The notes beneath the pieces were generated by a model. It had not been told where the DNA came from. It ran no database searches and was given only the letters and a program-made list of their open reading frames with translations. A DNA stretch of 29,465 bases, from IMG/VR virus record IMGVR_UViG_3300009181_000253, positions 1-29,465 of that record; one strand, 5' to 3'. The DNA is from a virus. Shown here in pieces: positions 1-11,433 of this stretch; the first letter of the stretch is position 1; every line of letters starts with the position of its first letter. The position numbers were made by a program, and so were the translations under genes.

Positions 1-201
1 AATTTCGTGGATAGATTCGTGGATCGCCGTACCCTGCATAAGCGGAAAGGTATTAGCCCAATGTTTAATAGTATGAGGCTTAGGATGAAACCTCCCAATG
101 GCAGTATGCCTATCGTTAGTAAGATCACTAGAGAAATGTAGATACTCATCAGCCCTAGGCTCACTAATCTTCCACTTAATAACATCAATCAGTTCCTTCA
201 T
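1..201 (-). CDS. Probable PD-(D/E)XK (RecB/Cas4-like) exonuclease, N-terminal part only
   Basis: The first 67 codons of a leftward gene are present; the rest lies beyond the left edge. The reading frame is open from the ATG at 201 to base 1. The segment ends in GTAIHESIHEI (residues 57-67), which resembles the conserved start of the nuclease core in RecB/Cas4-type PD-(D/E)XK exonucleases, where a Gly-Thr-x-x-His helix precedes the catalytic acids. The catalytic residues would be downstream and cannot be seen, so the assignment rests on one motif. An AGAGGAG ribosome site lies just upstream, inside the 3' end of the preceding gene, which overlaps this one by 17 bases. It is the fifth gene after promoter A. 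Phage enzymes of this kind act in recombination or DNA-end processing. Confidence 0.5.
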   Translation of the reverse strand, partial: MKELIDVIKWKISEPRADEYLHFSSDLTNDRHTAIGRFHPKPHTIKHWANTFPLMQGTAIHESIHEI

Positions 202-382
202 CGTTCTCCTCTAGTGTTTCAGTAAACTTAACGAGTGTTTCACCATCAGCATCATACACATGACCAAGTACATAATTATTAATCTTCACAAACTCTAGGC
301 TTGCGACCTGCTGACCTTCACAAAAAACGCCACATATAACACCACGATCATTATAACAAGTAGCAACACTAATTGCGCTCAT
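185..382 (-). CDS. Small hypothetical early protein (65 aa)
   Basis: I do not recognise this 65-residue protein. It begins MSAISVATCY, looks like a small soluble beta-rich domain, and has an acidic C-terminus (LEENDEGTD). A longer in-frame version could start further upstream, but the ATG at 382 has a strong AAGGAGG site about ten bases before it, and the longer form would lie within the separate microgene at 369-485. It overlaps both neighbours: its start lies inside the end of the 38-residue gene, and its end overlaps the start of the putative exonuclease. This suggests translational coupling in the promoter A operon. Confidence 0.7.
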   Translation of the reverse strand: MSAISVATCYNDRGVICGVFCEGQQVASLEFVKINNYVLGHVYDADGETLVKFTETLEENDEGTD

Positions 383-485
383 TCTTTCGTGCCTCCTTAG
401 CAGCCTGTTTCTTAGCGCCACGCTCTAGCCGCTTACGCATGTTCTCCTCCAACTTAGCCTTTTTCATACCCTTAACGGTAGCCAC
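369..485 (-). CDS. Basic microprotein (38 aa), GTG start
   Basis: A 38-codon gene fills the gap between two larger genes. It starts at GTG on the stop of the upstream gene (TAGTG) and has AAGGAG about nine bases upstream. The product begins MATVKGMKKAKLEEN and is rich in Lys, Arg, Glu and Ala, with a likely single amphipathic helix (KRLERGAKKQAAKEARKNER) and a net positive charge. Its last codons overlap the start of the 65-residue gene and carry that gene's ribosome site. A start at the internal ATG (position 467) is possible but has poorer spacing. The function is unknown. A nucleic-acid-binding or inhibitor peptide would fit the charge, but that is only a guess. Confidence 0.6.
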   Translation of the reverse strand: MATVKGMKKAKLEENMRKRLERGAKKQAAKEARKNERN

Positions 486-718
486 TATACTTTCTCCTTA
501 GGTTTAAATTTAATACACGTTGCAATGAAACCAGACTTACCACTAGCAGATGGATGACGGCGATAAGCATACACCTTATAGCCCGACTCATACAACAAGT
601 CAGTAGCATCACACAACCCATCTACCTGACCCAACTTAACACCATCCGCAGCAACATTCCACTTCTCATTCTTACTACGCTTAACAGTAGCATCTACCAT
701 ATTCTTAAACTTACTCAT
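485..718 (-). CDS. Hypothetical early protein (77 aa)
   Basis: This 77-residue protein begins MSKFKNMVDATVKRSKNEKW. I do not recognise the family. It has a basic N-terminus, a central stretch with DGVKLGQVDGLCDATDLL, and a Lys-rich tail (KFKPKEKV). The ATG at 718 is preferred over an in-frame TTG one codon earlier because GAAGGA lies seven bases upstream of it. It overlaps the end of the 50-residue gene by eight bases and hands over to the next gene through a TAGTG junction. Confidence 0.75.
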   Translation of the reverse strand: MSKFKNMVDATVKRSKNEKWNVAADGVKLGQVDGLCDATDLLYESGYKVYAYRRHPSASGKSGFIATCIKFKPKEKV

Positions 719-863
719 CAATATCCTTCATAACTACAGTACCATCATTATATATAGTAATGTACTGTGCCTTAAGATCATATAACTTTTCTCTCATCTC
801 TTGTATAATAACTTCTATCTCATGATCCCATTCAGGAGTACTCATATAATCCTCACTAGTCAT
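711..863 (-). CDS. Hypothetical early protein (50 aa), first gene after promoter A
   Basis: A 50-residue acidic protein begins MTSEDYMSTPEWDHEIE. It has a predicted helix (IIQEMREKLYDLKAQ) followed by two short strands (YITIYNDGTVVMKDI). A longer in-frame reading would start 33 bases upstream, between the ribosome site and the promoter. The ATG at 863 is chosen because AGAAAGGA lies at good spacing and promoter A ends about 25 bases upstream. The family is unknown. As the first gene of this five-gene operon it may be made early and in high amount. Confidence 0.75.
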   Translation of the reverse strand: MTSEDYMSTPEWDHEIEVIIQEMREKLYDLKAQYITIYNDGTVVMKDIDE

Positions 864-886
864 AGTGTCCTTTCTATTCTTCTTGT

Positions 887-915
887 ACAATAGCACACTT
901 AGTACCTAATGTCAA
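887..915 (-). promoter_or_regulatory. Promoter A, sigma70 type, leftward
   Basis: On the minus strand there is a perfect TTGACA (-35, 915-910), a 17-base spacer and TATTGT (-10, 892-887). The start would lie near 880, giving a short leader before the ATG at 863. It serves the block 863 to 1 and below. The -35 is followed by TT, as in promoters B, C and D. Confidence 0.8.
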
Positions 916-919
916 GCCC

Positions 920-937
920 CGTTACAATACTGTTACA
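920..937 (-). promoter_or_regulatory. Tandem 11-bp-spaced box upstream of promoter A
   Basis: Minus-strand half sites TGTAACAGTAT and TGTAACG repeat with an 11-base period, ending four bases before the -35 of promoter A. Matching boxes occur at promoters B, C and D (same orientation) and near E (opposite orientation). The spacing of one helical turn suggests a dimeric or tandem-binding regulator. Its identity is unknown. Confidence 0.55.
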
Positions 938-956
938 TATAAGGAATACTTATATG

Positions 957-1166
957 CTACTCACTACCACCATAACTACAGGGGTTATGATCATAACCAA
1001 GGTTATGCATATCAATACTAATCCAAGCATCAAGAGCATCACGAATAAGAAACGCCTGCTTCTCATCAGAACACTCGGCAATACCTAGGTAAGTATCATT
1101 CTCTAGATCGTTGCATACTAGTACGAAGTATGACTCACCAATCAGGGCAACAATAGCGTCAATCAT
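957..1166 (-). CDS. Hypothetical protein (69 aa)
   Basis: A 69-residue acidic protein begins MIDAIVALIGESYFVLVC. It has two beta-type stretches (ESYFVLVCND, TYLGIAEC) and a helix (DEKQAFLIRDALDAW). It is not a family I recognise, but the layout resembles a small alpha/beta domain. The start overlaps the stop of the SET gene (TAATG) and has TGAGGAG upstream. It is the last gene of the block running from 3720, ending just before promoter A. Confidence 0.75.
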   Translation of the reverse strand: MIDAIVALIGESYFVLVCNDLENDTYLGIAECSDEKQAFLIRDALDAWISIDMHNLGYDHNPCSYGGSE

Positions 1167-1579
1167 TACAACTCCTCAAACCATACATCATCACCATAAC
1201 TAATAGTCAACTCTTCTCCACACGCTACATCTCGAACAGTAATAAACTTAAGCGCATTAAAAGGGTAAGAAAAATTAGACACCTCGTCAACATCGCCAAT
1301 AGACCACATCTCATAGAGACAATTCTTTTCAGACGAATGATTAAACAACGAGCCAACACCCATCGCAAACGCTAACCTGTTTTCATCCCAAGTAAACACA
1401 TACCCAGCCGCATCTGTTTCATTAAAGGAATCTAGATCATTGTTCTTTAGCAAAAGAACGGGAGCAATATGAACAGTCGTGTTCTCTGGCAAGTCGGATG
1501 ATGCGAACACTCCAACACCATGCTTCCACGACTGGTTCACATACACTCTCTCTCCTGCTGTTAAACGCCGTTCATTCAT
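1166..1579 (-). CDS. SET-domain protein, putative lysine methyltransferase (137 aa)
   Basis: The whole 137-residue protein is a compact SET domain. Seen in order are GVGVFAS (21-27, the Gly-x-Gly-x-Phe cofactor-binding start), GSLFNHS with Asn86 (76-86, the NHxxxxN-type motif) and GEELTISYG (121-129), whose Tyr128 fits the catalytic tyrosine of the family. SET enzymes transfer methyl groups from S-adenosylmethionine to protein lysines. There is no pre-SET or other partner domain, as in short bacterial and viral SET proteins. ATG at 1579 is chosen over an in-frame GTG one codon earlier because it overlaps the previous stop (TGATG) and has GGAGAAG upstream. The target is unknown; host chromatin or RNA-polymerase-associated proteins, or phage proteins, are all possible. 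The domain call is firm, the activity inferred. Confidence 0.85.
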   Translation of the reverse strand: MNERRLTAGERVYVNQSWKHGVGVFASSDLPENTTVHIAPVLLLKNNDLDSFNETDAAGYVFTWDENRLAFAMGVGSLFNHSSEKNCLYEMWSIGDVDEVSNFSYPFNALKFITVRDVACGEELTISYGDDVWFEEL

Positions 1580-1764
1580 CACACTTCTCCATACTCGTGA
1601 GCAACAATAGAAATATTCTGTAACACATACTCAATAAAGTCTGCGGGAATATCCCCATTAATAATAGCCTCAGGATCTTCACACTCATAATCAACATGCA
1701 CCTGCATCGCATCAAACGAAGGCTCGAAGATCAACTCTACATCAAACGTATAAGGATTAATCAT
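1579..1764 (-). CDS. Hypothetical acidic protein (61 aa)
   Basis: A 61-residue, strongly acidic protein begins MINPYTFDVELIFEPSFDAM. It starts within the stop region of the upstream gene (ATGA overlap) and ends within the start region of the SET gene. GAGG upstream is a fair ribosome site. The sequence reads as two beta strands followed by a helix (PADFIEYVLQNISIVAHEYG). No family is recognised. Confidence 0.7.
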   Translation of the reverse strand: MINPYTFDVELIFEPSFDAMQVHVDYECEDPEAIINGDIPADFIEYVLQNISIVAHEYGEV

Positions 1765-1970
1765 GCCGTAGCCTCTTTGCTTAGAATGTTAAGCATATAA
1801 TATGCAAACTCTTTATCCTCTGTCCAAGCCACAGTCTTATCAAAAGGCTCTGTCTTAGGCTCACTAAACGGAAACGAATACTCCGTAGTACGAGTACCCT
1901 CAACAACAATAAGGTACTGCGGGGTTCTATAATGGGTTGTCTCTTTAATATAATAATTATAACTAGACAT
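1761..1970 (-). CDS. Hypothetical protein (69 aa)
   Basis: A 69-residue protein begins MSSYNYYIKETTHYRTPQY. A longer in-frame reading to 2120 overlaps the 112-residue gene almost fully and has a hydrophobic, unnatural N-terminus. The ATG at 1970 is chosen because AAGGAGAT sits at ideal spacing. It is rich in Tyr, Thr and Glu, with beta-type stretches (YLIVVEGTRTTEYSF) and a C-terminal helix (EFAYYMLNILSKEA). The function is unknown. Confidence 0.75.
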   Translation of the reverse strand: MSSYNYYIKETTHYRTPQYLIVVEGTRTTEYSFPFSEPKTEPFDKTVAWTEDKEFAYYMLNILSKEATA

Positions 1971-2301
1971 TTGTAATCTCCTTAAGATTAGCATTGACCC
2001 ACTCGGTAGTGAGCGAGGTCGTTTCACCTTCATCATCACAGTTTCCGACAATAAGCATATTGCCAGCGATCCAATCATCACCATAGATAGCCTTGTGTGA
2101 CCAAGCAAGGTTGGTAGCATAGGTATTCTTAGGCAATCCTTCTAACTTACCTTCCTCATTTACATAAGCCGTAGCACCATCAAGGTACACACCCTCAATG
2201 TATCCGCCTACACAAGCCACCATATCATCGTAACTAATAGATGTTGGCTCCTTGATGATACAAACATCGCCCTGCGAATTGATTACTGCATAAGTAAACA
2301 T
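1963..2301 (-). CDS. Hypothetical protein (112 aa)
   Basis: A 112-residue acidic protein begins MFTYAVINSQGDVCIIKEP. It has features common in small phage proteins: an N-terminal strand pair, a Gly/Tyr-rich middle (GGYIEGVYLDGATAYVNEEGK) and a negatively charged second half (GNCDDEGETTS). This resembles phage proteins in which a short strand-turn-strand is followed by a region counting or scaling a value, but I cannot name the family. It starts at ATG overlapping the previous stop (TAATG) and has GATGAGG upstream. Confidence 0.75.
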   Translation of the reverse strand: MFTYAVINSQGDVCIIKEPTSISYDDMVACVGGYIEGVYLDGATAYVNEEGKLEGLPKNTYATNLAWSHKAIYGDDWIAGNMLIVGNCDDEGETTSLTTEWVNANLKEITNV

Positions 2302-2501
2302 TATACCTCATCCTCTACTTTCGTAACATTAGCCTGATCTTCTACATCATACTCCATGTAGTAAGACTCAAGCCCATCCTTACCAACCTGCTGTATAGCC
2401 TCAGTCATGGCGTTCCTCCAATCCGTAGCCTGCACCCTACAAGTAACCTGCACAGGTACCTCTAGAGTAACATAATACGCCTTCTTCTGGCAATTGCACA
2501 T
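2301..2501 (-). CDS. Hypothetical protein with Cys-rich N-terminus (66 aa)
   Basis: A 66-residue protein begins MCNCQKKAYYVTLEVPVQVTCRV. It has three cysteines in the first 21 residues, then a predicted helix (DWRNAMTEAIQQVGKDG). The beta-strand/helix order resembles small phage proteins of unknown function that handle a repeated input. The ATG at 2501 is preferred over an in-frame GTG four codons upstream because it forms a TAATG junction and has GAGGTGG upstream. The cysteines (CxC) are too few for a sure metal site. Confidence 0.7.
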   Translation of the reverse strand: MCNCQKKAYYVTLEVPVQVTCRVQATDWRNAMTEAIQQVGKDGLESYYMEYDVEDQANVTKVEDEV

Positions 2502-2764
2502 TATACTTTCCACCTCACACCTTCACTAATAATAGGAAACGAATCGTCACTAGCCTCATCACAATACTCATACCAATCAGCCCTAACCTCAGCCTCAAAA
2601 GCATCAATAGCCCTATAATCGCCGAACGTCATACGCTGATCCTCATCAACATCAGCCCAATAAGCCTCAGTCACATCATCCATCATACGATCAATGGCAC
2701 TATCTGTTAGATCATTATACACTCTATCTCCTTCGTCGTCCATTTGATAATCAAACTCTAGCAT
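2501..2764 (-). CDS. Hypothetical highly acidic protein (87 aa)
   Basis: An 87-residue protein begins MLEFDYQMDDEGDRVYND. Asp and Glu make up more than a quarter of it by eye. It is probably mostly helical with many aromatic residues (AYWADVDED, ADWYEYCDEASDD). The charge recalls DNA-mimic or inhibitor proteins, such as anti-restriction proteins, which would suit a position next to ArdC, but no motif supports that. The start at 2764 has GGGGGTGAG upstream. A 47-base gap separates it from the ArdC gene. Confidence 0.7.
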   Translation of the reverse strand: MLEFDYQMDDEGDRVYNDLTDSAIDRMMDDVTEAYWADVDEDQRMTFGDYRAIDAFEAEVRADWYEYCDEASDDSFPIISEGVRWKV

Positions 2765-2792
2765 ACTCTCACCCCCTTGTCGAGTCGTAAAT

Positions 2793-2811
2793 TGTTTAGA
2801 TATTGTAAAGA
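2793..2811 (+). promoter_or_regulatory. Tandem 11-bp-spaced box after ArdC
   Basis: Half sites TGTTTAGATAT and TGTAAAGA lie on the plus strand with an 11-base period, matching the boxes at promoters B and C, in the 47-base gap between the ArdC gene and the next gene. No good promoter is visible next to it: the nearest -35-like hexamer would put the start inside the downstream gene. It may be a secondary binding site or a decayed copy. Confidence 0.35.
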
Positions 2812-3720
2812 TTATGCGACAGCATAGGTATTCTCCATCACCATATTAGCCGCGTAACTAGCCGCATTAGCAGCAGAGAACAACAACTTAGGCTCAGCCT
2901 TACAACGCTTAGCCCATGCCTTCAGGTAAGCAGCAGACTGGGAATCATCAAGAGGCACACCAGTATTAGCACATAAGAACGCTGCACCAAACTCAGCAAC
3001 TAATTCTTCTTTTGCATACTTATCACCACCAAACGTACCAAGATCCAGCCGGTTAGTGCGAGACTCATGCCCCGTACTGTGTGCAATCTCGTGGAACAGA
3101 GTGTGATAGTAGGATTCTAGCGTTTGGAATTGATCAACGTCAGGCATTGTAATGCTGTCCAATTGTGGAGTGTAGAATGCACGATCACCACCATGAATCA
3201 AACCATGCTTCAGCGTATCACACCACTCAGCCGTAATCAACTGTGCCTCACCATACTCATCATGCTCATGATCATAACCCTCAACCATTACATCAGGCAA
3301 CTCGAAGGTATCAATACCATCAATCTGCGAACCATTAAAGACCCTGTAGTAGCGCTGAAACCACGAAGTCTTAGTCTCAACCTCACCCGTAGACTCATCC
3401 TCTACGTCACGTTGAGTAGACTTATTGTAGATGATGATCGTAGACTTGCTGCCCTTCTTCACCTGCATACCCTCATCTAGGCTGTTCATTGTGTAGAATC
3501 GTGGATCATTCCAACCATTCTGCTCAACAAGAAACGATAGGTACATGCTATTAAACCCTGTATAGGGACGGTTACTGATACCGTTTCGCGGCATCATCGC
3601 ATCACCCCTACCCCGCACAATCCAAGGCTTAGACCACGGAGCCACACCAGATTCCATCAAGGCAATAAGCCCTTCGGTAATCTCGGCGTGTACCTCTGCA
3701 ATGTCAAACTTCTTCTTCAT
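2812..3720 (-). CDS. ardC: ArdC-type antirestriction protein with zincin metallopeptidase domain (302 aa)
   Basis: Two domains are visible. The N-terminal ssDNA-binding domain (about 1-140) has the family pattern: an initial helix, APWSKPW (27-33), then NGISNRPYTGFN (46-57). The C-terminal zincin domain carries HEIAH (210-214) followed by STGH (215-218), and EELVAEFGAAFL (238-249), which supplies the third zinc ligand. ArdC proteins bind single-stranded DNA and protect incoming DNA from restriction; phage and plasmid versions are usually about 300 residues, as here. The start is fixed by GAGGAAAG before ATG 3720 and by promoter B upstream. It is the first gene of the 3720-957 block, as expected for a protein needed soon after DNA entry. 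Known activity is from plasmid relatives; protection by this copy is inferred. Confidence 0.92.
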   Translation of the reverse strand: MKKKFDIAEVHAEITEGLIALMESGVAPWSKPWIVRGRGDAMMPRNGISNRPYTGFNSMYLSFLVEQNGWNDPRFYTMNSLDEGMQVKKGSKSTIIIYNKSTQRDVEDESTGEVETKTSWFQRYYRVFNGSQIDGIDTFELPDVMVEGYDHEHDEYGEAQLITAEWCDTLKHGLIHGGDRAFYTPQLDSITMPDVDQFQTLESYYHTLFHEIAHSTGHESRTNRLDLGTFGGDKYAKEELVAEFGAAFLCANTGVPLDDSQSAAYLKAWAKRCKAEPKLLFSAANAASYAANMVMENTYAVA

Positions 3721-3749
3721 TTTGCTTTCCTCTTTCGGTTAGTAATCAA

Positions 3750-3777
3750 ACACTAGCAGACAATCCGCCAATGTCAA
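3750..3777 (-). promoter_or_regulatory. Promoter B, leftward, driving ardC
   Basis: Minus strand TTGACA (3777-3772), a 16-base spacer and TAGTGT (3755-3750); a 17-base spacer would give AGTGTT. The first bases after the -35 (TTGG) and the leader just before the gene (CGAAAGAGGAAAG) match promoter C's leader, so the two are probably co-regulated. The start lies about 25 bases before ATG 3720. Confidence 0.7.
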
Positions 3778-3780
3778 ACG

Positions 3781-3800
3781 ATCTTAACAATATCCTTACA
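3781..3800 (-). promoter_or_regulatory. Tandem 11-bp-spaced box upstream of promoter B
   Basis: Half sites TGTAAGGATAT and TGTTAAGA lie on the minus strand with an 11-base period, running into ATCGT just before the TTGACA of promoter B. The block from TTAAGATCG through the -35 matches promoter C closely. It directly follows the stop codon of the 23-residue gene. Confidence 0.6.
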
Positions 3801-3801
3801 T

Positions 3802-3873
3802 TTACTGGTGATAAATAACGTACAGCGCAGTAAACGCCACTAGCACTACCAGAAAGACGTCGATAGGCATCAT
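3802..3873 (-). CDS. Single-transmembrane microprotein (23 aa)
   Basis: A 23-codon gene begins MMPIDV and continues with a hydrophobic run (FLVVLVAFTALYVIY, residues 7-21) long enough to cross a membrane. It starts as an ATGA overlap with the stop of the 71-residue gene, so coupled translation is likely. It ends at the edge of the promoter B box. The hydrophobic composition, the overlapping start and the snug fit between gene and promoter support it being real, but no homologue is known to me. A membrane-acting early protein (superinfection exclusion, or host-membrane modulation) is possible. Confidence 0.5.
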   Translation of the reverse strand: MMPIDVFLVVLVAFTALYVIYHQ

Positions 3874-4085
3874 GCGAGACTACCCCTATTAAAGATTCTA
3901 TCCGCGTGAGTATAGCAAGCCGCATCCATTCGCGCACTATGCAAACTTTCATGCTCACTCATAAGGATATCATCGTTATTGTCCCACGGATTAACATACC
4001 ATACCTCGTACAATCCGTTGTCCGGGTCGATGATATGGTAGTCCCCAATTTGATCGCAGAATTTAGTATCCAAATTACGTTCCAT
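3870..4085 (-). CDS. Hypothetical protein (71 aa)
   Basis: A 71-residue protein begins MERNLDTKFCDQIGDYHII. The ATG at 4085 is preferred over an in-frame ATG five codons upstream because GAGAGGG sits at the right distance. Sequence features are a beta-rich middle (YHIIDPDNGLYEVWYVNPWDN) and a C-terminal helix with SLHSARMDAACYTHADRI. It resembles many small phage proteins that pair one beta sheet and one helix. No function is assigned. It ends in an ATGA overlap with the 23-residue TM gene. Confidence 0.75.
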   Translation of the reverse strand: MERNLDTKFCDQIGDYHIIDPDNGLYEVWYVNPWDNNDDILMSEHESLHSARMDAACYTHADRIFNRGSLA

Positions 4086-4106
4086 TTTACACCCTCTCAT
4101 TAGTAT

Positions 4107-4325
4107 TTATACAAAACAAGGCGGGACAATGGTCATAGGTACATACTCTACATGCTGACCATCCGCGCCATCATCGTCAAACTTTGCAACCATACGGCTA
4201 CAAAACTCTTTAGCATCTTGAGCAGATGCAAAAGGACCATAAGTATTTACCATCGTCATTTGCGTTGTATTTCCGTCATGGTACAGGTCATACCATACCA
4301 CACTATATGCGAGTCGTTCGATCAT
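4107..4325 (-). CDS. Hypothetical protein (72 aa)
   Basis: A 72-residue protein begins MIERLAYSVVWYDLYHDGN. The order is strand, strand, helix (SAQDAKEFCSRMVAKFDDD), strand, as in the previous gene, so the two may be distant duplicates. An AGAGAGG site lies upstream of ATG 4325, inside the end of the 32-residue gene. The final residues (VPMTIVPPCFV) are hydrophobic. No family is recognised. Confidence 0.75.
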   Translation of the reverse strand: MIERLAYSVVWYDLYHDGNTTQMTMVNTYGPFASAQDAKEFCSRMVAKFDDDGADGQHVEYVPMTIVPPCFV

Positions 4326-4329
4326 AATT

Positions 4330-4428
4330 TTACAGCCTCTCTAAGCGTATTTTATACCCCATTAGTAGGGTAGTACCTAAAGTACCTGCAAGAGCCTTAG
4401 CAGCGCCTACAGGTACCTTAGAATCCAT
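4330..4428 (-). CDS. Putative microprotein (32 aa)
   Basis: A 32-codon frame fills the gap between the 184- and 72-residue genes. It begins MDSKVPVGAAKALAGTLG and ends GYKIRLERL. Its stop lies four bases before the next ATG, and its last codons contain that gene's AGAGAGG site, the same packing as elsewhere in this arm. Codon use (GCT, AAG, CTT, GGT, ACT) matches the neighbours. The weak point is its own ribosome site, which is poor. It is Ala/Gly/Leu-rich and may be a small membrane-leaning helix. Confidence 0.4.
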   Translation of the reverse strand: MDSKVPVGAAKALAGTLGTTLLMGYKIRLERL

Positions 4429-4447
4429 CCTAGCACACTATCCCGTA

Positions 4448-5002
4448 CTAGTACGCGCTTCCCCGGAACGCAATCCAAATAGCCGCCTGCATATCTCGCG
4501 GAGTAGTGTCAAAGACTAGCGCAAGATTCTCGCAAGCCTCTGTTACCTCTCCCCGAATCTTAGGGGATACATCCGAACCGTAGCCTGCCGCTTTAGACAT
4601 TAGGCTATCTACCGTGACCAGATCCGTGCGTCCCACGATATTGGCATAGAATGCTGACACTTTAGCGCCAGTTACAAGCCGCGAATAGTAGTGTTCAGAC
4701 ATTACAGCCAAACCCTTCGCACTACTCGCACCTAGGATGCCATAATTTGCGCGGCGCTTATACACCGGACGAAACGAATCCTCCACAATCGCATGGGTAG
4801 CCTTGACATTCTGCGACCATCGCGCCCGTGGACTAGTGACCGCCATTACAGCCGCCGCACGTTGCACACTAATCCCGTGCGCTTTAGCAATTTCTACGCA
4901 TTCCTGCCGCGCCTTAGGGTACCACTCTGCACCCTGCCGTAGCATATCCTCCGTGCCTGCATCCTGCAAGATTCGGAAGTATTTATTGGTGATATTAGAC
5001 AT
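4448..5002 (-). CDS. Conserved actinophage-type protein (184 aa), function unknown
   Basis: This helical protein has motifs I associate with a family common in phages of actinobacteria (possibly DUF7178): WYPKARQECVEIAKAHG (27-43), AAVMAVTSPRARWSQN (49-64), KVSAFYANIVG (113-123), VTVDSL (128-133) and QAAIWIAFRG (173-182). Repeated helix-turn-helix segments resemble the fold of helix-hairpin-helix DNA glycosylases, but I see no clear catalytic Lys/Asp pair. In other phages it sits among early nucleic-acid genes, as here. The ATG at 5002 follows the 64-residue gene after two bases, with a weak ribosome site (GTGATGG), so coupling is likely. The family resemblance is from memory and the number is uncertain. 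Confidence 0.7.
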   Translation of the reverse strand: MSNITNKYFRILQDAGTEDMLRQGAEWYPKARQECVEIAKAHGISVQRAAAVMAVTSPRARWSQNVKATHAIVEDSFRPVYKRRANYGILGASSAKGLAVMSEHYYSRLVTGAKVSAFYANIVGRTDLVTVDSLMSKAAGYGSDVSPKIRGEVTEACENLALVFDTTPRDMQAAIWIAFRGSAY

Positions 5003-5004
5003 TT

Positions 5005-5199
5005 TTATACCATCACTTTCGTTAGATTACGGACGTAGCACACTTGATTCCAATCGTACCCCATACCCGTAACGTAATCGTACAGGTCGTTGTAAACAAA
5101 CTCTGCCGCTAGGCGCTGATTCTGGTATGATTCTACCGCCCAATAATCAGCCTGCCTCATTCGCGTTTCATCGAATTCTAATACCAATTCTGTTTCCAT
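5005..5199 (-). CDS. Hypothetical protein (64 aa), first gene after promoter C
   Basis: A 64-residue protein begins METELVLEFDETRMRQAD. It is mainly helical with many aromatics (YWAVESYQNQRLAAEFVYNDLYDYV). A longer in-frame reading would start at 5280, upstream of promoter C. The ATG at 5199 is chosen because GAGGAAAG lies at ideal spacing and the leader matches that of ardC. It leads the block 5199-3802, followed by the 184-residue gene. The function is unknown. Confidence 0.75.
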   Translation of the reverse strand: METELVLEFDETRMRQADYWAVESYQNQRLAAEFVYNDLYDYVTGMGYDWNQVCYVRNLTKVMV

Positions 5200-5227
5200 T
5201 TTACTTTCCTCTTTCGTTGATAGGTGA

Positions 5228-5256
5228 AACGTACCAGACCATTGACGGAATGTCAA
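5228..5256 (-). promoter_or_regulatory. Promoter C, leftward
   Basis: Minus strand TTGACA (5256-5251), 17-base spacer, TACGTT (5233-5228). The -10 is followed by a 12-base element, TTTCACCTATCA, also found at promoter D. The leader CGAAAGAGGAAAG just before the gene is shared with promoter B. It drives the block that starts at 5199. Confidence 0.65.
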
Positions 5257-5260
5257 ACGA

Positions 5261-5279
5261 TCTTTACAAATTCCGAACA
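5261..5279 (-). promoter_or_regulatory. Tandem 11-bp-spaced box upstream of promoter C
   Basis: Half sites TGTTCGGAATT and TGTAAAGA lie on the minus strand with an 11-base period, then TCGT directly before the TTGACA. The distance from box to -35 (four bases) equals that at promoter B. It sits between the stop of the 92-residue gene and the promoter. Confidence 0.55.
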
Positions 5280-5280
5280 A

Positions 5281-5559
5281 TTAGAATTTTTCCATCGAAT
5301 CCCAACGTGCGCGATCCTCTACCTTTTTAGCATTGACCTTCGCGGTTACGCCCGTATCCCAATTGTGTTGGGCGGTATCCTCTGCGAATTGTCGCAATGC
5401 GCGGCTAAAGTCAGCCTCCAAACGCCCAATCTTACGGTATAGCGCCATTTCTGCATCGGTGAACGTTCCACCATTGCTACCATCGGCACCATCCATCGCA
5501 TCCAGCGCCATGCTTACAGCGCCCATTACGCTAGTGAAATTCCTCTGCACTTCGCTCAT
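5281..5559 (-). CDS. Hypothetical helical protein (92 aa)
   Basis: A 92-residue protein begins MSEVQRNFTSVMGAVSMAL. A Gly/Asp/Ser-rich turn (MDGADGSNGGTFTDAE) is followed by a long charged helix (MALYRKIGRLEADFSRALRQFAED). The C-terminus is basic and acidic in turn. No family is recognised. The ATG at 5559 has AAAGGGG upstream. The tRNA-like element lies 35 bases upstream of the start in the same transcript, and the 3' end abuts the box of promoter C. Confidence 0.75.
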   Translation of the reverse strand: MSEVQRNFTSVMGAVSMALDAMDGADGSNGGTFTDAEMALYRKIGRLEADFSRALRQFAEDTAQHNWDTGVTAKVNAKKVEDRARWDSMEKF

Positions 5560-5593
5560 AGCATACCCCTTTACACTCTGCCATTATTGGCAA

Positions 5594-5634
5594 TACCCGG
5601 CGCGGAATCGAACCGCACTACAACCATTCGGGCA
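5594..5634 (-). ncRNA. tRNA-like acceptor/T-arm minihelix (no D or anticodon arm)
   Basis: On the minus strand, TGCCCG and CGGGTA pair as a 6-bp outer stem (one G-U). The inner stem GTGCGG/CCGCGC (6 bp, one U-G) carries the loop TTCGATT, which matches the universal tRNA T-loop pattern (T-T-C-Pur-A). The two stems stack without a gap on the 3' side, giving 12 bp, the length of a tRNA acceptor plus T stem. A 10-nt bulge (AATGGTTGTA) replaces the D and anticodon arms. No normal tRNA can be built from the flanks. A 5-bp hairpin follows at 5579-5592. Such a helix is the minimal substrate of RNase P, so it may be a processing site in the early mRNA. This is structural evidence only. Confidence 0.45.
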
Positions 5635-5648
5635 GACACTAGCACACT

Positions 5649-5855
5649 CTAGCGAATATCACCAGCCATTCGGCTGTTACCCCGCAAGCCAACCGGCGCA
5701 CAACTAACACGCCTAACCCGCCTCTGACGCAACACTCCAACGCCAACATACTTCGCCGCCACCTTAGCAGAGGGAACACTAGACAACCGCACAACACGAA
5801 ATACCTGCCCGTCAATCGTAACGGAAGGCTTACGGAAACCTTTTACGCTAGACAT
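5649..5855 (-). CDS. Hypothetical very basic protein (68 aa)
   Basis: A 68-residue protein begins MSSVKGFRKPSVTIDGQVF and is strongly positive, with an Arg-rich core (VLRQRRVRRVSCAPVGLRG). The first half looks like two beta strands. The charge suggests binding to nucleic acid, but no family motif is visible. Its start lies within the final codons of the 32-residue acidic gene upstream, and codon use matches the arm. The tRNA-like element follows 15 bases after its stop. Confidence 0.7.
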   Translation of the reverse strand: MSSVKGFRKPSVTIDGQVFRVVRLSSVPSAKVAAKYVGVGVLRQRRVRRVSCAPVGLRGNSRMAGDIR

Positions 5856-5946
5856 TCTCTGCCTCTACTTCCACCAAAAGGGACTCAATTAACGCCTCGA
5901 CCTCGGGCGTAAACACTTCCACCATATCATCATCATCATACAGCAT
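5848..5946 (-). CDS. Acidic microprotein (32 aa), first gene after promoters D/E
   Basis: A 32-codon gene begins MLYDDDDMVEVFTPEVEAL and ends ESLLVEVEAENV. It is very acidic, with a likely single helix. GAAAGG lies about eight bases before ATG 5946. It overlaps the next, strongly basic, protein by eight bases. The opposite charges of these two coupled products suggest they might bind each other, in the manner of a two-gene complex, but this is a guess from composition. Confidence 0.55.
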   Translation of the reverse strand: MLYDDDDMVEVFTPEVEALIESLLVEVEAENV

Positions 5947-6227
5947 TCTACTTGCCTTTCACTAGGGAATGGTGCGCCCATATTGCAATGGGACTAGCCG
6001 CGCTTGCCGCACCGGATATATCATCACCCACTAGGGTTTCACACTCATATGGCTACTAATAGGGTACGTTTAACAGGGTTACTGCCCGCGTTACCCGTTC
6101 GCCTATATAGGGAGGATAGCCTACCCGTTTCACTCATCACGATTGCGCCATACGCCTACCGTGCTAGTGACCTAGCGTCCTACTCTGCAGTGCGCTTCAC
6201 TTGCCGCCCTGCCTTGCTGATAGGTGA
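5947..6227 (-). other. Leader region between promoter D and the first early gene
   Basis: About 280 bases lie between the promoter D start and the acidic microgene. On the minus strand there are only tiny frames of 20-30 codons that follow each other with overlapping stops and starts (for instance one beginning MSETGRLSS), all with poor ribosome sites. No tRNA, riboswitch or terminator is recognised. It is richer in G+C than the AT-rich region to the right. A long structured leader or a run of micro-ORFs are both possible. Confidence 0.4.
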
Positions 6228-6256
6228 AATATGCCATGCCCGAAACCCAATGTCAA
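6228..6256 (-). promoter_or_regulatory. Promoter D, leftward
   Basis: Minus strand TTGACA (6256-6251), 17-base spacer, CATATT (6233-6228). The -10 runs into TTTCACCTATCA, the same 12 bases as at promoter C. A second -35-like hexamer, TTGACT, lies 18 bases upstream. It drives the first early block (5946, 5855, 5559), together with promoter E. Confidence 0.6.
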
Positions 6257-6269
6257 GGGGAATAGTCAA

Positions 6270-6288
6270 CCTTTACAAAATGCTTACA
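6270..6288 (-). promoter_or_regulatory. Tandem 11-bp-spaced box upstream of promoter D
   Basis: Half sites TGTAAGCATTT and TGTAAAGG lie on the minus strand with an 11-base period. The gap to the -35 is 13 bases, against four at A, B and C, a difference of about one helical turn, so the box would face the same side of the helix. Confidence 0.55.
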
Positions 6289-6291
6289 AAT

Positions 6292-6305
6292 CGAACAAGT
6301 GTTCT
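6292..6305. promoter_or_regulatory. LexA-type SOS box (GAAC-N4-GTTC)
   Basis: The 14 bases CGAACAAGTGTTCT carry the perfect inverted half sites GAAC and GTTC with four bases between, and match the Gram-positive/actinobacterial LexA (DinR) box at all but the last position. The box lies between promoters E and D, just upstream of D's tandem box, where a bound repressor could block transcript E or affect D. One copy was seen; a chance match cannot be excluded. Confidence 0.45.
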
Positions 6306-6341
6306 ATTCCTCTTTGATCTAAGAGAACGAACGGGCGAGCG

Positions 6342-6370
6342 CGAATAGCAGACCTCGACAACGTTGTCAA
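6342..6370 (-). promoter_or_regulatory. Promoter E, leftward, rightmost early promoter
   Basis: Minus strand TTGACA (6370-6365), 17-base spacer, TATTCG (6347-6342). The region before the -10 (GTCTGC) resembles promoter B (TGTCTGC) and A (TGTGC). It is in tandem with promoter D, about 115 bases upstream of it. A small inverted repeat (CTCTT/AAGAG) lies at 6312-6327, near the start of its transcript. Confidence 0.55.
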
Positions 6371-6379
6371 GAGCAATTA

Positions 6380-6398
6380 GGTAACAGAACGGTAACAG
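6380..6398 (+). promoter_or_regulatory. Tandem 11-bp-spaced GGTAACAG repeat next to promoter E
   Basis: GGTAACAG occurs twice, at 6380-6387 and 6391-6398, an 11-base period. GTAACAG also occurs in box A, but here the orientation relative to the promoter is reversed. The repeat ends nine bases from the promoter E -35. Confidence 0.45.
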
Positions 6399-6763
6399 TA
6401 ATGCTAATCGGCAGAGTAATAGCAGATACCCTCTGTTTACCCTGCAAATAAGCCAAGACAGCGATGTAGAGAGAATACAGGCTAGGGTACCTGTAAGCAT
6501 CGGAGAGCCTTAGAGGGCTGTTTCTGACGTTCTCACGGGGTATTGGTCACACGGCAACACTAACAACACTAAACAGAACCAAAGTGCTAAAGAATACAAC
6601 CACTACAATATACAATAGAATGGCTTAAACCCTAAGTAACAGAGAATAATAAGTAACGTATTTAATAAGATATACCTTATAGTTATGGTACTATAAAGAT
6701 ATAGTGTTGTAATTACCTTTACTATACGGCTGTTATATATATATATATATAGTATAGTAATAC

Positions 6764-6798
6764 TAGGCAAGGCGTTATATATATACAATCCTTGCCTA
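6764..6798. repeat. 9-bp inverted repeat with AT-rich 17-base centre
   Basis: TAGGCAAGG (6764-6772) and CCTTGCCTA (6790-6798) are perfect inverted copies. The 17-base centre contains TATATATA. This could be an operator, a cruciform or an origin element; it lacks a T tract on either side, so a terminator is unlikely. Confidence 0.5.
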
Positions 6799-7016
6799 AA
6801 TTGTATAAGCATACCAATAATGGCAATAAGCAAAAAAAAAGATGCGCCTATACGGTATATACCGGACACGAACCCCCGTTCAGCAGTGGTGATATATATA
6901 CAATGGACTGCATATAAATTTAGCACTTTATACTTTGATGTTACATTTTAGAGATTTGGTGCATTATTATAGGTAGAGGGTTATTTTTTTTTATTTTTGT
7001 TTGAGGATAGGGAGTT

Positions 7017-7163: not shown

Positions 7164-8627
7164 GTGGCGGATTTTAGTGTTAGTAAAGGGGTTACGCTTG
7201 ATAAGGTAGCGTTGGCTGGTATGCTTGAGGCTTTTCCTGCTAAGTTTGGTTGGTTTCTTAGTGTGGGGTATCTTCCTCATTATTGGCAGACGTTGTTTCA
7301 TGCTAATAATAATGATGGTAGGCTTGTTAGGTTTAGGCACTTGGTGGCTGGTCGTCGTGGTGGTAAGACTCTTTCTGCTGCTTGGGAGGTTCTTTTTTAT
7401 TGTTTGTTTCCTGAGCAGTTTCATAAGGATTTGCATGGTACGGATCGGGATGATCCTTTGTGGGTGTGGGCTTTGTCTGCATCGTATAAGGTGGGTCGTC
7501 CTTCGTATCTTACTATGCGTAAGGTCATTAATGATGCTGGTTTGATCATTGGTAAGGATGTTAAGGAGAATCGAGGTGATCTTAGGTTCGAGTTTTCTAA
7601 TGGTTCTATGATTGAGTTCAAGTCGGCGGAGGATCCTCAGTCTCTTCGTGGTGCAGGCTTGGATATTCTTTGGATGGATGAGGCTGCTTTTATTAAATCA
7701 GACGAAGCGTGGCTGGTTACTCGCCCTTCACTCTCTGATAAGCAGGGTATGCTGATTACTACGACTACTCCTGATGGTAAGAACTGGTTTTATGACGAGT
7801 TTTGGGGTCCTGATGCTATGGCTGATGATCAGATTGGTCGTGTAGAGTACCGAAGTATTGATAATCCTTATTTTGCTAAGTCAGAATGGGAGTATGTGAA
7901 GCAAAGATACCATCCACTCTTGTTTAATCAGGAGTATTGTGCTGCTTTTGACTCTATGGCGGGTAGGGATTTGTCTGGTGAGTGGCTTAAGTACTATGAT
8001 AATAGTGATTTGAGGAATGATGAGGGACAACCGTTGAAATTGCGTCGTTATATGGGCGTGGATCCGGCTGTTAGTATGAGTGGGAAAGGCGACAGGTTCG
8101 TTATTAGCGTTGTTGGAGTATCTGACTCTAATCAAGTGTTCTTGTTGGAGCAGTACGCGGCGCGAATCCCATTTGCGGAACAATTGGAGAAAATTGAGGA
8201 GTATTATATTAATTTTAAGCCTGAACTCATCGGCATCGAGTCGAATGCTTATCAGGCCGCGCTAGTTCAGCAGGCTGAACGATTACCTTCAATGCCTCCT
8301 ATTGTTCCTATCTTCGCTAAGGGTAAAAAGTTCGAGCGTATCCTTGCGATGAGTCCTTTGTTTAGGATTGGTAAGATTAAAATTAAGAAGGATCATCGTG
8401 ATTTTATTGATGAGTGGATTAATTATGATTCTGCCATGAGTAAGCCTAAGGATGACTGTTTGGATAGTGTGGAGATTGCTCTTAGGTGTGCGGGAGCCTT
8501 GCTTGGGGATTATACTGTAACTGAAACTAGTAATAATAATCTGCCAGACTGGATTCTCTCTGATAGGCCGGGAGTGAACAAGAAAGAAAACAATATTTAT
8601 GATGATGTTATGGGGAGTGAGTGGTGA
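7164..8627 (+). CDS. terL: Terminase large subunit (487 aa)
   Basis: This is the DNA-packaging motor: an ATPase that drives DNA into the procapsid and a nuclease that cuts the concatemer. The Walker A motif AGRRGGKT is at 62-69, Walker B LDILWMDE at 166-173 (Asp172, Glu173) and the coupling motif TTTP at 200-203. The RNase H-like nuclease has Asp300 (GVDPA), Glu359 (IGIES) and Asp434 (DDCLDS). All expected catalytic residues are present and the length is typical. It starts at GTG 7164, nine bases downstream of AAGGAG. It ends in an overlap with the following small gene. Confidence 0.95.
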   Translation: MADFSVSKGVTLDKVALAGMLEAFPAKFGWFLSVGYLPHYWQTLFHANNNDGRLVRFRHLVAGRRGGKTLSAAWEVLFYCLFPEQFHKDLHGTDRDDPLWVWALSASYKVGRPSYLTMRKVINDAGLIIGKDVKENRGDLRFEFSNGSMIEFKSAEDPQSLRGAGLDILWMDEAAFIKSDEAWLVTRPSLSDKQGMLITTTTPDGKNWFYDEFWGPDAMADDQIGRVEYRSIDNPYFAKSEWEYVKQRYHPLLFNQEYCAAFDSMAGRDLSGEWLKYYDNSDLRNDEGQPLKLRRYMGVDPAVSMSGKGDRFVISVVGVSDSNQVFLLEQYAARIPFAEQLEKIEEYYINFKPELIGIESNAYQAALVQQAERLPSMPPIVPIFAKGKKFERILAMSPLFRIGKIKIKKDHRDFIDEWINYDSAMSKPKDDCLDSVEIALRCAGALLGDYTVTETSNNNLPDWILSDRPGVNKKENNIYDDVMGSEW

Positions 8628-8968: not shown

Positions 8969-9083
8969 TGAGGATCAGCAAGACGCTGATTGGGCATTAA
9001 AACAAGGAATCATTAGTCCTGCGGAATATAAAGAGTTACTTAGTACGGCTGGATTAGAACCTTCTGATCTAGAATTTGCTTAG
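8829..9083 (+). CDS. Small coiled-coil protein before portal (about 84 aa)
   Basis: This frame, +1 to the previous gene and overlapping it for 140 bases, begins MREILATQKMWLEKM. It has a strongly heptad-like helix (LEKMLVLEEEKLRLDRLR), and then a second helical part with ADWALKQGIISPAEYKELL. The start is uncertain: ATG 8829 has only a weak ribosome site, whereas TTG 8898 has GGAGGAGGAG at good distance and would give 61 residues without the coiled coil. The clean heptads favour the longer form. Its function is unknown; its end is seven bases before the portal ribosome site. Confidence 0.6.
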   Translation: MREILATQKMWLEKMLVLEEEKLRLDRLRIEGASPLTDVPLGQLRVDEDQQDADWALKQGIISPAEYKELLSTAGLEPSDLEFA

Positions 9084-9093
9084 GAGGCTACGG

Positions 9094-11433
9094 TTGCACG
9101 AGACTAGTACACAATTAGGAGACACAAATACTACTGGTTTTGCTCCGGCAACTAGTCTCGTTAGTCGTGTCGATGAACTACAGCGAGGCCGCGACCAGAT
9201 GGAACGCGCATGGAAAATTAACCTTAGTTTCTATAAGGGAAAACAATACGTCTTCTATAATAAGCGTACTCGCCGCATCGAGAGCCTAGCGACAGAAGAC
9301 GGAGATAAGCCACGCTATCGTGTCCGTATCGTAGCAAACCAGATTGCTCCTAATAGTATGGGATTGCTCGCCCGTCTTACGAAGAGCAAGCCGCAGTTTT
9401 TTGCTACTCCGACTAGTGCTGGGTATGAGAATCAGAAGGCTACTGAGGTGGCTGAGAATCTGTTGGATCATTGGTGGAATAAGTTTAGTCTTAGTGAGAA
9501 GCGTGAGGAGGCGATGCTTTGGAGTATCATTTGTGGTAACGGGTTTTGGAAGATTAGTTGGGATGATAAGGTTGGGTCTAGTATTAAGTTGATGCTTGAT
9601 CCTGTTAATGGTCAGCCTATTATTGATCCTCTTCTTGAGCGTTTGTTTCGTGAGAATCTTCAGAGTATGAATGTTCCTGAGGAGCAGTTTGAGACTGAGG
9701 TGTTTGAGGGTGATATTCGTGTTGATGTTATTAGTCCTTTTAATGTGTTTCTTGATGATTCTGCTCAGGTGTTTGAGGATTGTAAGTATGCTTTTTGTTC
9801 GCATCCTATGGGTGTGGAGGAGGTGTATAGTCGGTTTGGTGTGCGTTTGAAGGCTAATGCTATTAATCGTTATCCTGATGAGTCTCTTCCGGGTATGTAT
9901 TCGTTTTCTTCTGGGCAGACTAAGGAGAATGTGCGAGAGATTTTTTATGGTTATTTTGTTCCTACTGCTGCTAATCCTATGGGTAGGGTTGTTGCGTTTA
10001 CTAAGGCTCCTGATATTGTGTTGTATGATGTTCCTTGGCCTTATCCGTTTAACGAGTTGCCTTTGGTTAAGTTTCCGGGGTTGCGTATTCCGGGTCAGTT
10101 GTGGGATACGTCGGTTGTTGAGCAGGGTGTTCCTTTGCAGAAGGAACTTAATCGTACGCTTAGTCAGTTGATTGAGTATAAGAATTTGACGTTGAAGCCG
10201 CAGATGTTGGCTCCGGTTGGTTCTTTGCGTCAGCGTATGACTGATGAGCCGGGTGCTATCTTTGAGTATAATCCTGTGGCGGGTAAGGTGCCTGAGGCTA
10301 TTCCTATTCCGGGGTTGCCGAGTTATGTTACTCAGCATCTTCAGGATATGGGTCAGCGTTTGAAGGATGTGTTTGGTTTGACTGAACTTATGCAGGGTAC
10401 TGTGCCTCCTAATGTTGAGGCTGGTGTTGCTATTGATCTTCTTCAGGAGGCTGCTACTGATCGTTTGGCTCCTCAGATTCTTATGATGGAGAAGGCGTTG
10501 GAGCGGTGTGGTAACTTGATTCTTAATCTTGCTCAGAAGTATTATACTGAGCCTAGGCTTATGTTGCTTAGTGGTGGTGCTGGTTCTAAGCCTCGTGTGG
10601 AGCAGTTTGAGCACGCTGATATTCTTAGTGGTATTCAGATTCGTGTTGAGGCTGGTTCTGGTTTGCCGCGTACTCGTGCGGGTAAGCAGGCTCGAGTTTT
10701 TCAGATGCTTAATATGGGTTTGATTACTCCTAGTAAGGCGTATAAGTATTTGGATCTCGCTGACTTTAAGAATCTTCAGGCTCAGTTTCAGGCTGATGAG
10801 GATCAGGCTATGCGTGAGCATGATAAGTTGATTGATGGTATGATTGTTAATGTTAGTGCGGCTAATGCTGCTCAGGCTGAGTTAATGAATCAGGAACAGA
10901 ATCCTGAGTTTGATCCTGAGACTGGCGAGCCGGTTCAAGCGGATCAAGATTTGTTGCAGCAGAGTATGGATGCTGGGTTGCAGCCTTTGACGTTTGAGAA
11001 TAAGACTACGCATTTGGAAACGCATGGTGCGTATATGAAGTCGCAAGAGTTCGAGTTGCTTCCTCCTGATATTCAGGCTAGGTTCTATAAGCATTTTGAG
11101 TTGACGCAGCAGGCTATTGCGGCTGAGTCTAATCCGCCTGTTGAGCCGCCTCGCGTGTCGCTTCAGTTGCGTGGTGCTGTTGGGCCTACGGTTGGTTCGA
11201 AGATGCTTAATCAGGCTGGTGTGGATAATGTTACACCTGAAGAGTTGTTGGAGCCTCCGCTTGATACGGTGGTTATTGATAATAAGGATAAGCCTAATGC
11301 TGGTGATGAGACTGCTATGGATCAATCTAAGATTCAGCAGGACTTGCTTAATAAGATTATGGAGCAGGATATGATGAATTCTCAGAAGCAGCGGTTTGCT
11401 ACCTTGGAGGAGGCGCGAAAGGTTGGCTTCTAG
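9094..11433 (+). CDS. Portal protein (779 aa)
   Basis: This is the dodecameric vertex protein through which DNA enters and leaves the head. The N-terminus has the portal pattern of a helix followed by WKINLSFYKGKQYVFYNKRT. Further on are WWNKFSLSEKREEA, a KISWDDKVG strand, VDVISPFNVFLDDSA, and a long helical C-terminus rich in Gln and Asp/Glu. The size is near P22-like podovirus portals (about 700-800 residues). TTG 9094 is taken as the start because TTAGGAGG lies at ideal spacing; an in-frame TTG at 9076 lies on the ribosome site itself. It is followed by the HTH gene with a short overlap. The 5' end (to about 9390) has a different third-base choice from the rest. Confidence 0.9.
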   Translation: MHETSTQLGDTNTTGFAPATSLVSRVDELQRGRDQMERAWKINLSFYKGKQYVFYNKRTRRIESLATEDGDKPRYRVRIVANQIAPNSMGLLARLTKSKPQFFATPTSAGYENQKATEVAENLLDHWWNKFSLSEKREEAMLWSIICGNGFWKISWDDKVGSSIKLMLDPVNGQPIIDPLLERLFRENLQSMNVPEEQFETEVFEGDIRVDVISPFNVFLDDSAQVFEDCKYAFCSHPMGVEEVYSRFGVRLKANAINRYPDESLPGMYSFSSGQTKENVREIFYGYFVPTAANPMGRVVAFTKAPDIVLYDVPWPYPFNELPLVKFPGLRIPGQLWDTSVVEQGVPLQKELNRTLSQLIEYKNLTLKPQMLAPVGSLRQRMTDEPGAIFEYNPVAGKVPEAIPIPGLPSYVTQHLQDMGQRLKDVFGLTELMQGTVPPNVEAGVAIDLLQEAATDRLAPQILMMEKALERCGNLILNLAQKYYTEPRLMLLSGGAGSKPRVEQFEHADILSGIQIRVEAGSGLPRTRAGKQARVFQMLNMGLITPSKAYKYLDLADFKNLQAQFQADEDQAMREHDKLIDGMIVNVSAANAAQAELMNQEQNPEFDPETGEPVQADQDLLQQSMDAGLQPLTFENKTTHLETHGAYMKSQEFELLPPDIQARFYKHFELTQQAIAAESNPPVEPPRVSLQLRGAVGPTVGSKMLNQAGVDNVTPEELLEPPLDTVVIDNKDKPNAGDETAMDQSKIQQDLLNKIMEQDMMNSQKQRFATLEEARKVGF
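9098..9161. repeat. 11-bp inverted repeat at the portal start
   Basis: ACGAGACTAGT (9098-9108) and ACTAGTCTCGT (9151-9161) are perfect inverted copies with a 42-base centre, beginning just after the portal start codon. The RNA could form a hairpin that affects translation of the portal gene. Confidence 0.4.

Follow-up and report, generated by a model that had tools for sequence, protein, structure and literature searches.

Tandem 11-bp-period boxes upstream of leftward promoters in an uncultivated phage lineage: candidate sites for a host OmpR/PhoB-family response regulator

INTRODUCTION

Tandem half-sites with an 11-bp period are typical of the sites of OmpR/PhoB-family response regulators. 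For MtrA of Corynebacterium glutamicum the consensus, which we took from a review, is (A/G)TAACAATttn(A/G)TAACAAT; sites lie upstream of the -35 element when the protein activates, and repression occurs from the -10 region (PMC3353115). MtrA of Mycobacterium tuberculosis recognizes a degenerate direct repeat, c-G-T/A-n-A-C/T-c, with 4-base spacing (PMC6265350), and that of Streptomyces coelicolor GTnAC-type repeats with 5-base spacing (PMC5650626; see also PMC13189361). Phage promoters under a host response regulator have been described before, with PhoB in cyanophages (PMC10976474). Here we describe a family of tandem boxes with an 11-bp period next to promoters of an IMG/VR virus record of 29,465 bases (IMGVR_UViG_3300009181_000253; analysed whole and called the window) and of its relatives, and compare them with these systems.

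RESULTS

Six boxes, whose motif in one orientation is TTACAAWATCTTTAC, lie in the leftward and presumably early arm of the window (1-6300), a region of small genes including one for an ArdC-type anti-restriction protein (2812-3720). Every box stands upstream of a sigma70-type promoter on the minus strand (Table 1). An earlier note on this DNA had listed these half-site pairs with their 11-base period, and all of them were recovered where it had placed them. It had, however, treated the boxes as equivalent and missed an inversion: the four boxes A-D point toward their TTGACA, while E and F are turned round and stand exactly 10 bp from the TTGACA (6370-6365) and TCGACA (2783-2778) of leftward promoters. 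The full arrangement of TTGACA, 17-bp spacer, TGn and TAnnnT is found at promoters A and C; B has a spacer of 16 bp, and D, E and F deviate in the -10 or the -35 element, the -10 elements of D and E being weak. Promoter F is an uncertain assignment, given its imperfect -35 and its overlap with a predicted start codon. The B and C cassettes align over 88 bp (3720-3810 and 5200-5290, minus strand), from the box to the ribosome-binding site and ATG, as if an early promoter had been copied ahead of different genes, and C and D have the box, the -35 and downstream sequence in common. As related promoter cassettes, B, C and D cannot be counted as three separate observations.

In dinucleotide shuffles of the left 7 kb, the pattern TGT[AT]A-n6-TGT[AT]A is expected 0.14 times; it occurs four times, a number equalled in none of 200 shuffles. 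GTAAC-n6-GTAAC, counted on either strand, occurs twice against an expected 0.01, and neither pattern has a match right of 7 kb. The motif search with shuffled controls that the earlier note had proposed thus comes out far above shuffled sequence for the strict patterns, but the loose TGT-n8-TGT alone is not significant there (9 versus 5.8).

Evidence that does not depend on these cassettes comes from relatives. The set of relatives comprised fetched contigs and a few shorter loci, 23 sequences and 642 kb after removal of near-duplicates, window included. In this set, GTWA pairs (W is A or T) beside TTGAC[AT] are found 18 times at period 11 and 0-3 times at each of the other periods from 7 to 16, and control half-site words give no comparable peak. 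When all 4-mers at all periods upstream of TTGAC[AT] were counted without bias, GTAA at period 11 came out on top, with 11 cases against 0.32 in shuffles and a shuffle maximum of 5. Where promoters were chosen blind to the box, as TTGAC[AT]-N14-TGN-TANNNT only, an exact box is present at 7 of 22 (0.09 expected), and every other period yields at most one. Similar and near-identical upstream sequences were collapsed for these two counts and for the spacing counts below. A first test, in which TTGAC sites with good and poor -10 elements were compared, gave only weak separation, probably because matches in coding regions diluted the signal, and was replaced by these later counts.

The module is present in about ten related IMG/VR phages. 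Ahead of the orthologues of open reading frame (ORF) 485-721 the box is kept in most relatives, in either orientation and with changed bases; in one of them (G012) both box and promoter A are kept ahead of orthologous genes. At the promoters of ctEqG8, a distant relative that we scanned, there are no boxes, and over all viral contigs period 11 hardly exceeds the period-12 control (39 versus 34 and 48 versus 41), so that we restrict the claim to this lineage, of which the module is a property. These collection-wide counts, like the kinship of cassettes B, C and D, agree with an origin by chance matches and duplication of a single promoter cassette, without selection for a box. Such an origin is nevertheless very improbable, for in divergent relatives the bases of the box change but its exact spacing does not, and near-identical upstream regions had been collapsed before counting.

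Distances were measured from the box to the extended -10, and the -35 was not used. Boxes with GTWA toward the promoter (class I) peak at 26-27, those with TWAC toward the promoter (class II) lie at exactly 20 in 7 of 13 cases, and control periods give no peak at either distance. Outliers are about one turn off: D at 36, and E, F and G021:20740 at 30. A switch of orientation goes together with a half-turn shift, and within one orientation boxes move by whole turns. As GTWAC differs little from its reverse complement, orientation is assigned with less certainty than phase. The gaps to TTGACA of 4 bases (A, B and C) and 13 bases (D) given in the earlier note are correct by its own box ends, but they do not amount to the whole spacing rule, which involves two orientations and distances of 26-27 or 36 and 20 or 30.

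Some promoters have a poor -35 and yet a box 20 from a good extended -10: G020:23209 (TTGTTT), G030:21596 (TAGCAT) and L089:3435 (TTGCGT). The last two carry three in-phase half-sites; a further triple box, at G020:23429, was seen by eye only. Retention of the box where the -35 is degraded would be expected if a bound protein stood in for the -35 in part. The reverse case, repression of the early promoters by a phage or host protein that uses the boxes as operators, for example in a later shut-off, has a low probability. It would suit the promoters that are near consensus and strong without help, and MtrA does repress some genes; however, both in the window and in relatives the boxes lie upstream of the -35 and do not cover the -35 or -10, whereas repression by MtrA is exerted from the -10 region (PMC3353115). 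Helical phasing and the retained boxes lead us to favour activation, a conclusion from few cases. The site family posited by the earlier note therefore stands, and of the activator and the repressor between which it had left the choice, the activator is the better candidate.

UP elements also lie upstream of the -35 with about one turn between subsites, but their subsites consist of A and T only, which is their defining feature, and are not oriented. It is improbable, in our view, that the repeats are UP-element-like subsites for the C-terminal domain of the RNA polymerase alpha subunit, with no dedicated regulator. Their position, their spacing and their A/T-rich flanks would be accounted for, but not the near-invariant C (G on the other strand) in each half-site, nor the enrichment of one recurring word, GTWA/TWAC; words of A and T only show no enrichment at other periods, and orientation is coupled to spacing.

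Direct repeats with a period of about 11 beside the -35, in helically phased position relative to RNA polymerase, are what OmpR/PhoB-type tandem activator sites look like. All boxes have the 11-bp period given by the 8-bp direct repeat and 3-bp linker of C. glutamicum MtrA sites, and they are situated upstream of the -35, as at MtrA-activated promoters. Scored against the C. glutamicum consensus, box E ranks first among the 58,894 window positions, A, B and F fall among the first 22, and C and D lie near 108. The reversed consensus is invalid as a control, because TAACAAT is its own reversal. Within half-sites T-W-A-C is near invariant. Over all six flank positions of the MtrA consensus, agreement is weak (P = 0.046; not significant for relatives alone), because in class II boxes the promoter-side flank is the -35 itself. 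A test designed after this weak result used the free half-site, the flanks of which are outside the selection: AAW follows TWAC in 15 of 22 promoter boxes and in 14 of 93 other period-11 pairs (P = 2e-6; relatives alone, P = 1.6e-4).

As the earlier note had stated, the regulator does not appear to be in the window, where we found no OmpR-type DNA-binding domain. Neither this domain (PF00486) nor WhiB was found in 25 phage records, the window and 24 relatives, many of which are fragments, so that absence is not proof. If the family assignment is right, the lack of an OmpR-type domain in these records favours a host-encoded regulator, a matter on which the earlier note had allowed for phage or host. 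Rather unlikely, to our mind, is a phage-encoded regulator from a family not recognized by Pfam that binds the boxes and activates or times the early promoters. The box is specific to the lineage, absent from distant actinophages and not enriched over the control period in viral contigs, and conserved small proteins without an assigned function are encoded beside the promoters (ORF 485-721, for example, has orthologues in a dozen relatives), all of which would fit a phage protein. Apart from the missing OmpR-type and WhiB domains, it should be noted, however, that among the conserved unknowns we scanned only a sigma-like pair belonged to a DNA-binding family, that a phage product would not yet be made when early promoters first fire, and that period, core and flanks of the motif all agree with those of a known host-regulator motif.

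The sigma-like pair lies outside the window. At L101:2703-3240 (minus strand) two adjacent small ORFs resemble sigma-70 region 2 (PF04542, E 2.9e-7) and, weakly, extracytoplasmic function (ECF) region 4 (E 0.008), and the two stand side by side in at least ten relatives. Together they may form a phage sigma factor of two subunits, recalling SigO-RsoA.

Among named phages we found no close DNA relative of the window, while a related terminase is encoded by about 80 IMG/VR contigs. The window is probably a fragment, because its longest close relatives measure 42-46 kb. The nearest named relatives of its portal protein (25-28% identity) are those of Arthrobacter phage Jasmine and its kin, Microbacterium phage Shocker and Cellulosimicrobium phage DS1. 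Since the relatives of the portal and DUF7178-like proteins are actinophage proteins, the host is likely to be actinobacterial.

Several further features were noticed. Upstream of ArdC, relatives have a strongly covarying RNA stem-loop (Table 1), with compensatory changes in 11 of 18 pairs and the loop GAACGAAGUGAAG or similar. It was not found in the window, where promoter B occupies its place ahead of ArdC; the left 7.2 kb has no match to Rfam families. At window 5585-5640 (minus strand) there is a tRNA-like T-arm (GCGGTTCGATTCCGC), where ARAGORN calls no tRNA. In relatives, box promoters directly follow tRNA genes, and for that reason the T-arm may be a tRNA remnant. An A/T-rich stretch with TATATATA runs (window 6660-6900) separates the leftward and rightward gene blocks and is possibly a late control region or an origin.

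Table 1. Boxes, associated promoters and other features of the window and its relatives
Feature	Position	Strand or direction	Description
Box A	920-937	-	TGTAACAGTATTGTAACG; reads toward its own promoter
Promoter A	887-915	-	TTGACA-17-TATTGT, TGC extended -10; ahead of ORFs 711-863 and 485-721
Box B	3782-3800	-	TGTAAGGATATTGTTAAGA
Promoter B	3750-3777	-	TTGACA-16-TAGTGT, TGC extended -10; ahead of ArdC
Box C	5261-5279	-	TGTTCGGAATTTGTAAAGA; imperfect distal half-site
Promoter C	5228-5256	-	TTGACA-17-TACGTT, TGG extended -10
Box D	6270-6288	-	TGTAAGCATTTTGTAAAGG; about one helical turn farther from -35 than A-C
Promoter D	6228-6256	-	TTGACA-17-CATATT, TGG upstream of -10; followed by a leader of about 290 bases
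Box E	6380-6398	+	GGTAACAGAACGGTAACAG; inverted relative to promoter E
Promoter E	6342-6370	-	TTGACA-17-TATTCG, TGC extended -10 (weak -10); about 115 bp upstream of promoter D
Box F	2793-2811	+	TGTTTAGATATTGTAAAGA; inverted relative to promoter F, gap 10
Predicted promoter F (uncertain)	2755-2783	-	TCGACA-17-TAGAGT, TGC extended -10; overlaps start of ORF 2501-2764
SET-domain protein	1166-1582	-	PF00856, E 6e-13; leftward arm
DUF7178-like protein	4448-5002		matches among mycobacteriophage and Rhodococcus phage proteins
Terminase	7164-8627	rightward
Portal	9076-11433	rightward
Major head protein	12772-14133	rightward
RNA stem-loop (relatives)	L119:3921-3993, L123:11595-11667, L222:3846-3917, L114:9494-9563 and others		one to few copies per record

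DISCUSSION

We suggest that the boxes are tandem head-to-tail sites for a host response regulator of the OmpR/PhoB family, most likely MtrA, and hold the chances of this reading to be evenly balanced. MtrA, a conserved actinobacterial regulator, would be supplied by the host. A dimer would bind the two half-sites (TTACAAWATC-n-TTACAAW, which is GTAA-n7-GTAA on the other strand) just upstream of host sigma-A RNA polymerase, always on one face of the helix relative to it, at promoters of the form TTGACA-17-TGnTAnnnT. Once bound, it would recruit or stabilize the polymerase, and the leftward early genes, anti-restriction ArdC and small ORFs, could be transcribed on entry, before any phage regulator. 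That these promoters are early is suggested by the gene content and by the sigma-like gene pair of relatives, which could serve later genes.

A number of observations weigh against this proposal. The first base of the half-site is mostly T, where MtrA sites have A or G, and TTAC is commoner than TAAC. Other actinobacterial regulators with GTnAC-type repeats, such as AfsQ1 and GlnR, could fit the boxes as well. Several of the promoters are near consensus and should need no activator, some good promoters of the lineage lack the box, and there are no boxes at promoters of the distant actinophages Jasmine, Shocker and DS1. The probable assignment of the host to actinobacteria is drawn from relatives of phage proteins only, and the sole relative of the terminase in a cellular genome (49% identity) is on a contig of a Dehalococcoidia metagenome-assembled genome, L100 (JADLBJ010000156.1); either this contig was binned wrongly or the lineage has a wider host range.

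More tentatively, we propose that a lineage of viruses, probably infecting actinobacteria, has taken host MtrA as a standing activator of early promoters and so tied the start of infection to the signalling state of MtrAB, with sites duplicated, inverted and shifted by whole helical turns. If so, infection by these phages would from its very first step depend on a host two-component system and not on strong sigma promoters alone, and phosphorylation of MtrA, that is, the physiological state of the cell, would set early transcription. The motif might also be used to annotate early promoters across a large group of uncultivated phages.

Among described systems, the start-associated and extended start-associated sequences of cluster K mycobacteriophages are likewise short dispersed repeats upstream of many leftward or early actinophage genes (PMC3203893). 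They comprise a start-linked sequence and 17-bp inverted repeats, whereas the phage boxes are tandem, with an 11-bp period and a fixed distance from the -35 and -10. The boxes do not match the extended start-associated sequences, being period-11 repeats spaced from promoter elements and not 17-bp inverted repeats by start codons.

The MtrA sites of C. glutamicum, Streptomyces and Mycobacterium share with the boxes an 11-bp direct repeat, a TAAC or GTnAC core and an A/T-rich flank after the core (PMC3353115, PMC5650626, PMC6265350, PMC13189361). At MtrA-activated genes the sites are upstream of the -35, as here, and a three-half-site arrangement like that of the phage triple boxes exists at S. 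coelicolor bldD (PMC5650626). Unlike known MtrA sites, the boxes are putative sites on phage promoters, occur in both orientations, and prefer TTAC to TAAC and T as first base.

In the literature searched we found no phage promoters under MtrA or another host response regulator, the one comparable case being PhoB in cyanophages. There, Pho boxes bound by PhoB of the host PhoBR system place phage promoters, as we suggest for the boxes, next to sites of a host OmpR/PhoB-family regulator (PMC10976474). Cyanophage PhoB differs in being a nutrient-stress regulator that serves selected phage genes under phosphate starvation, whereas the lineage described here has another motif, placed at a set of strong and probably early promoters.

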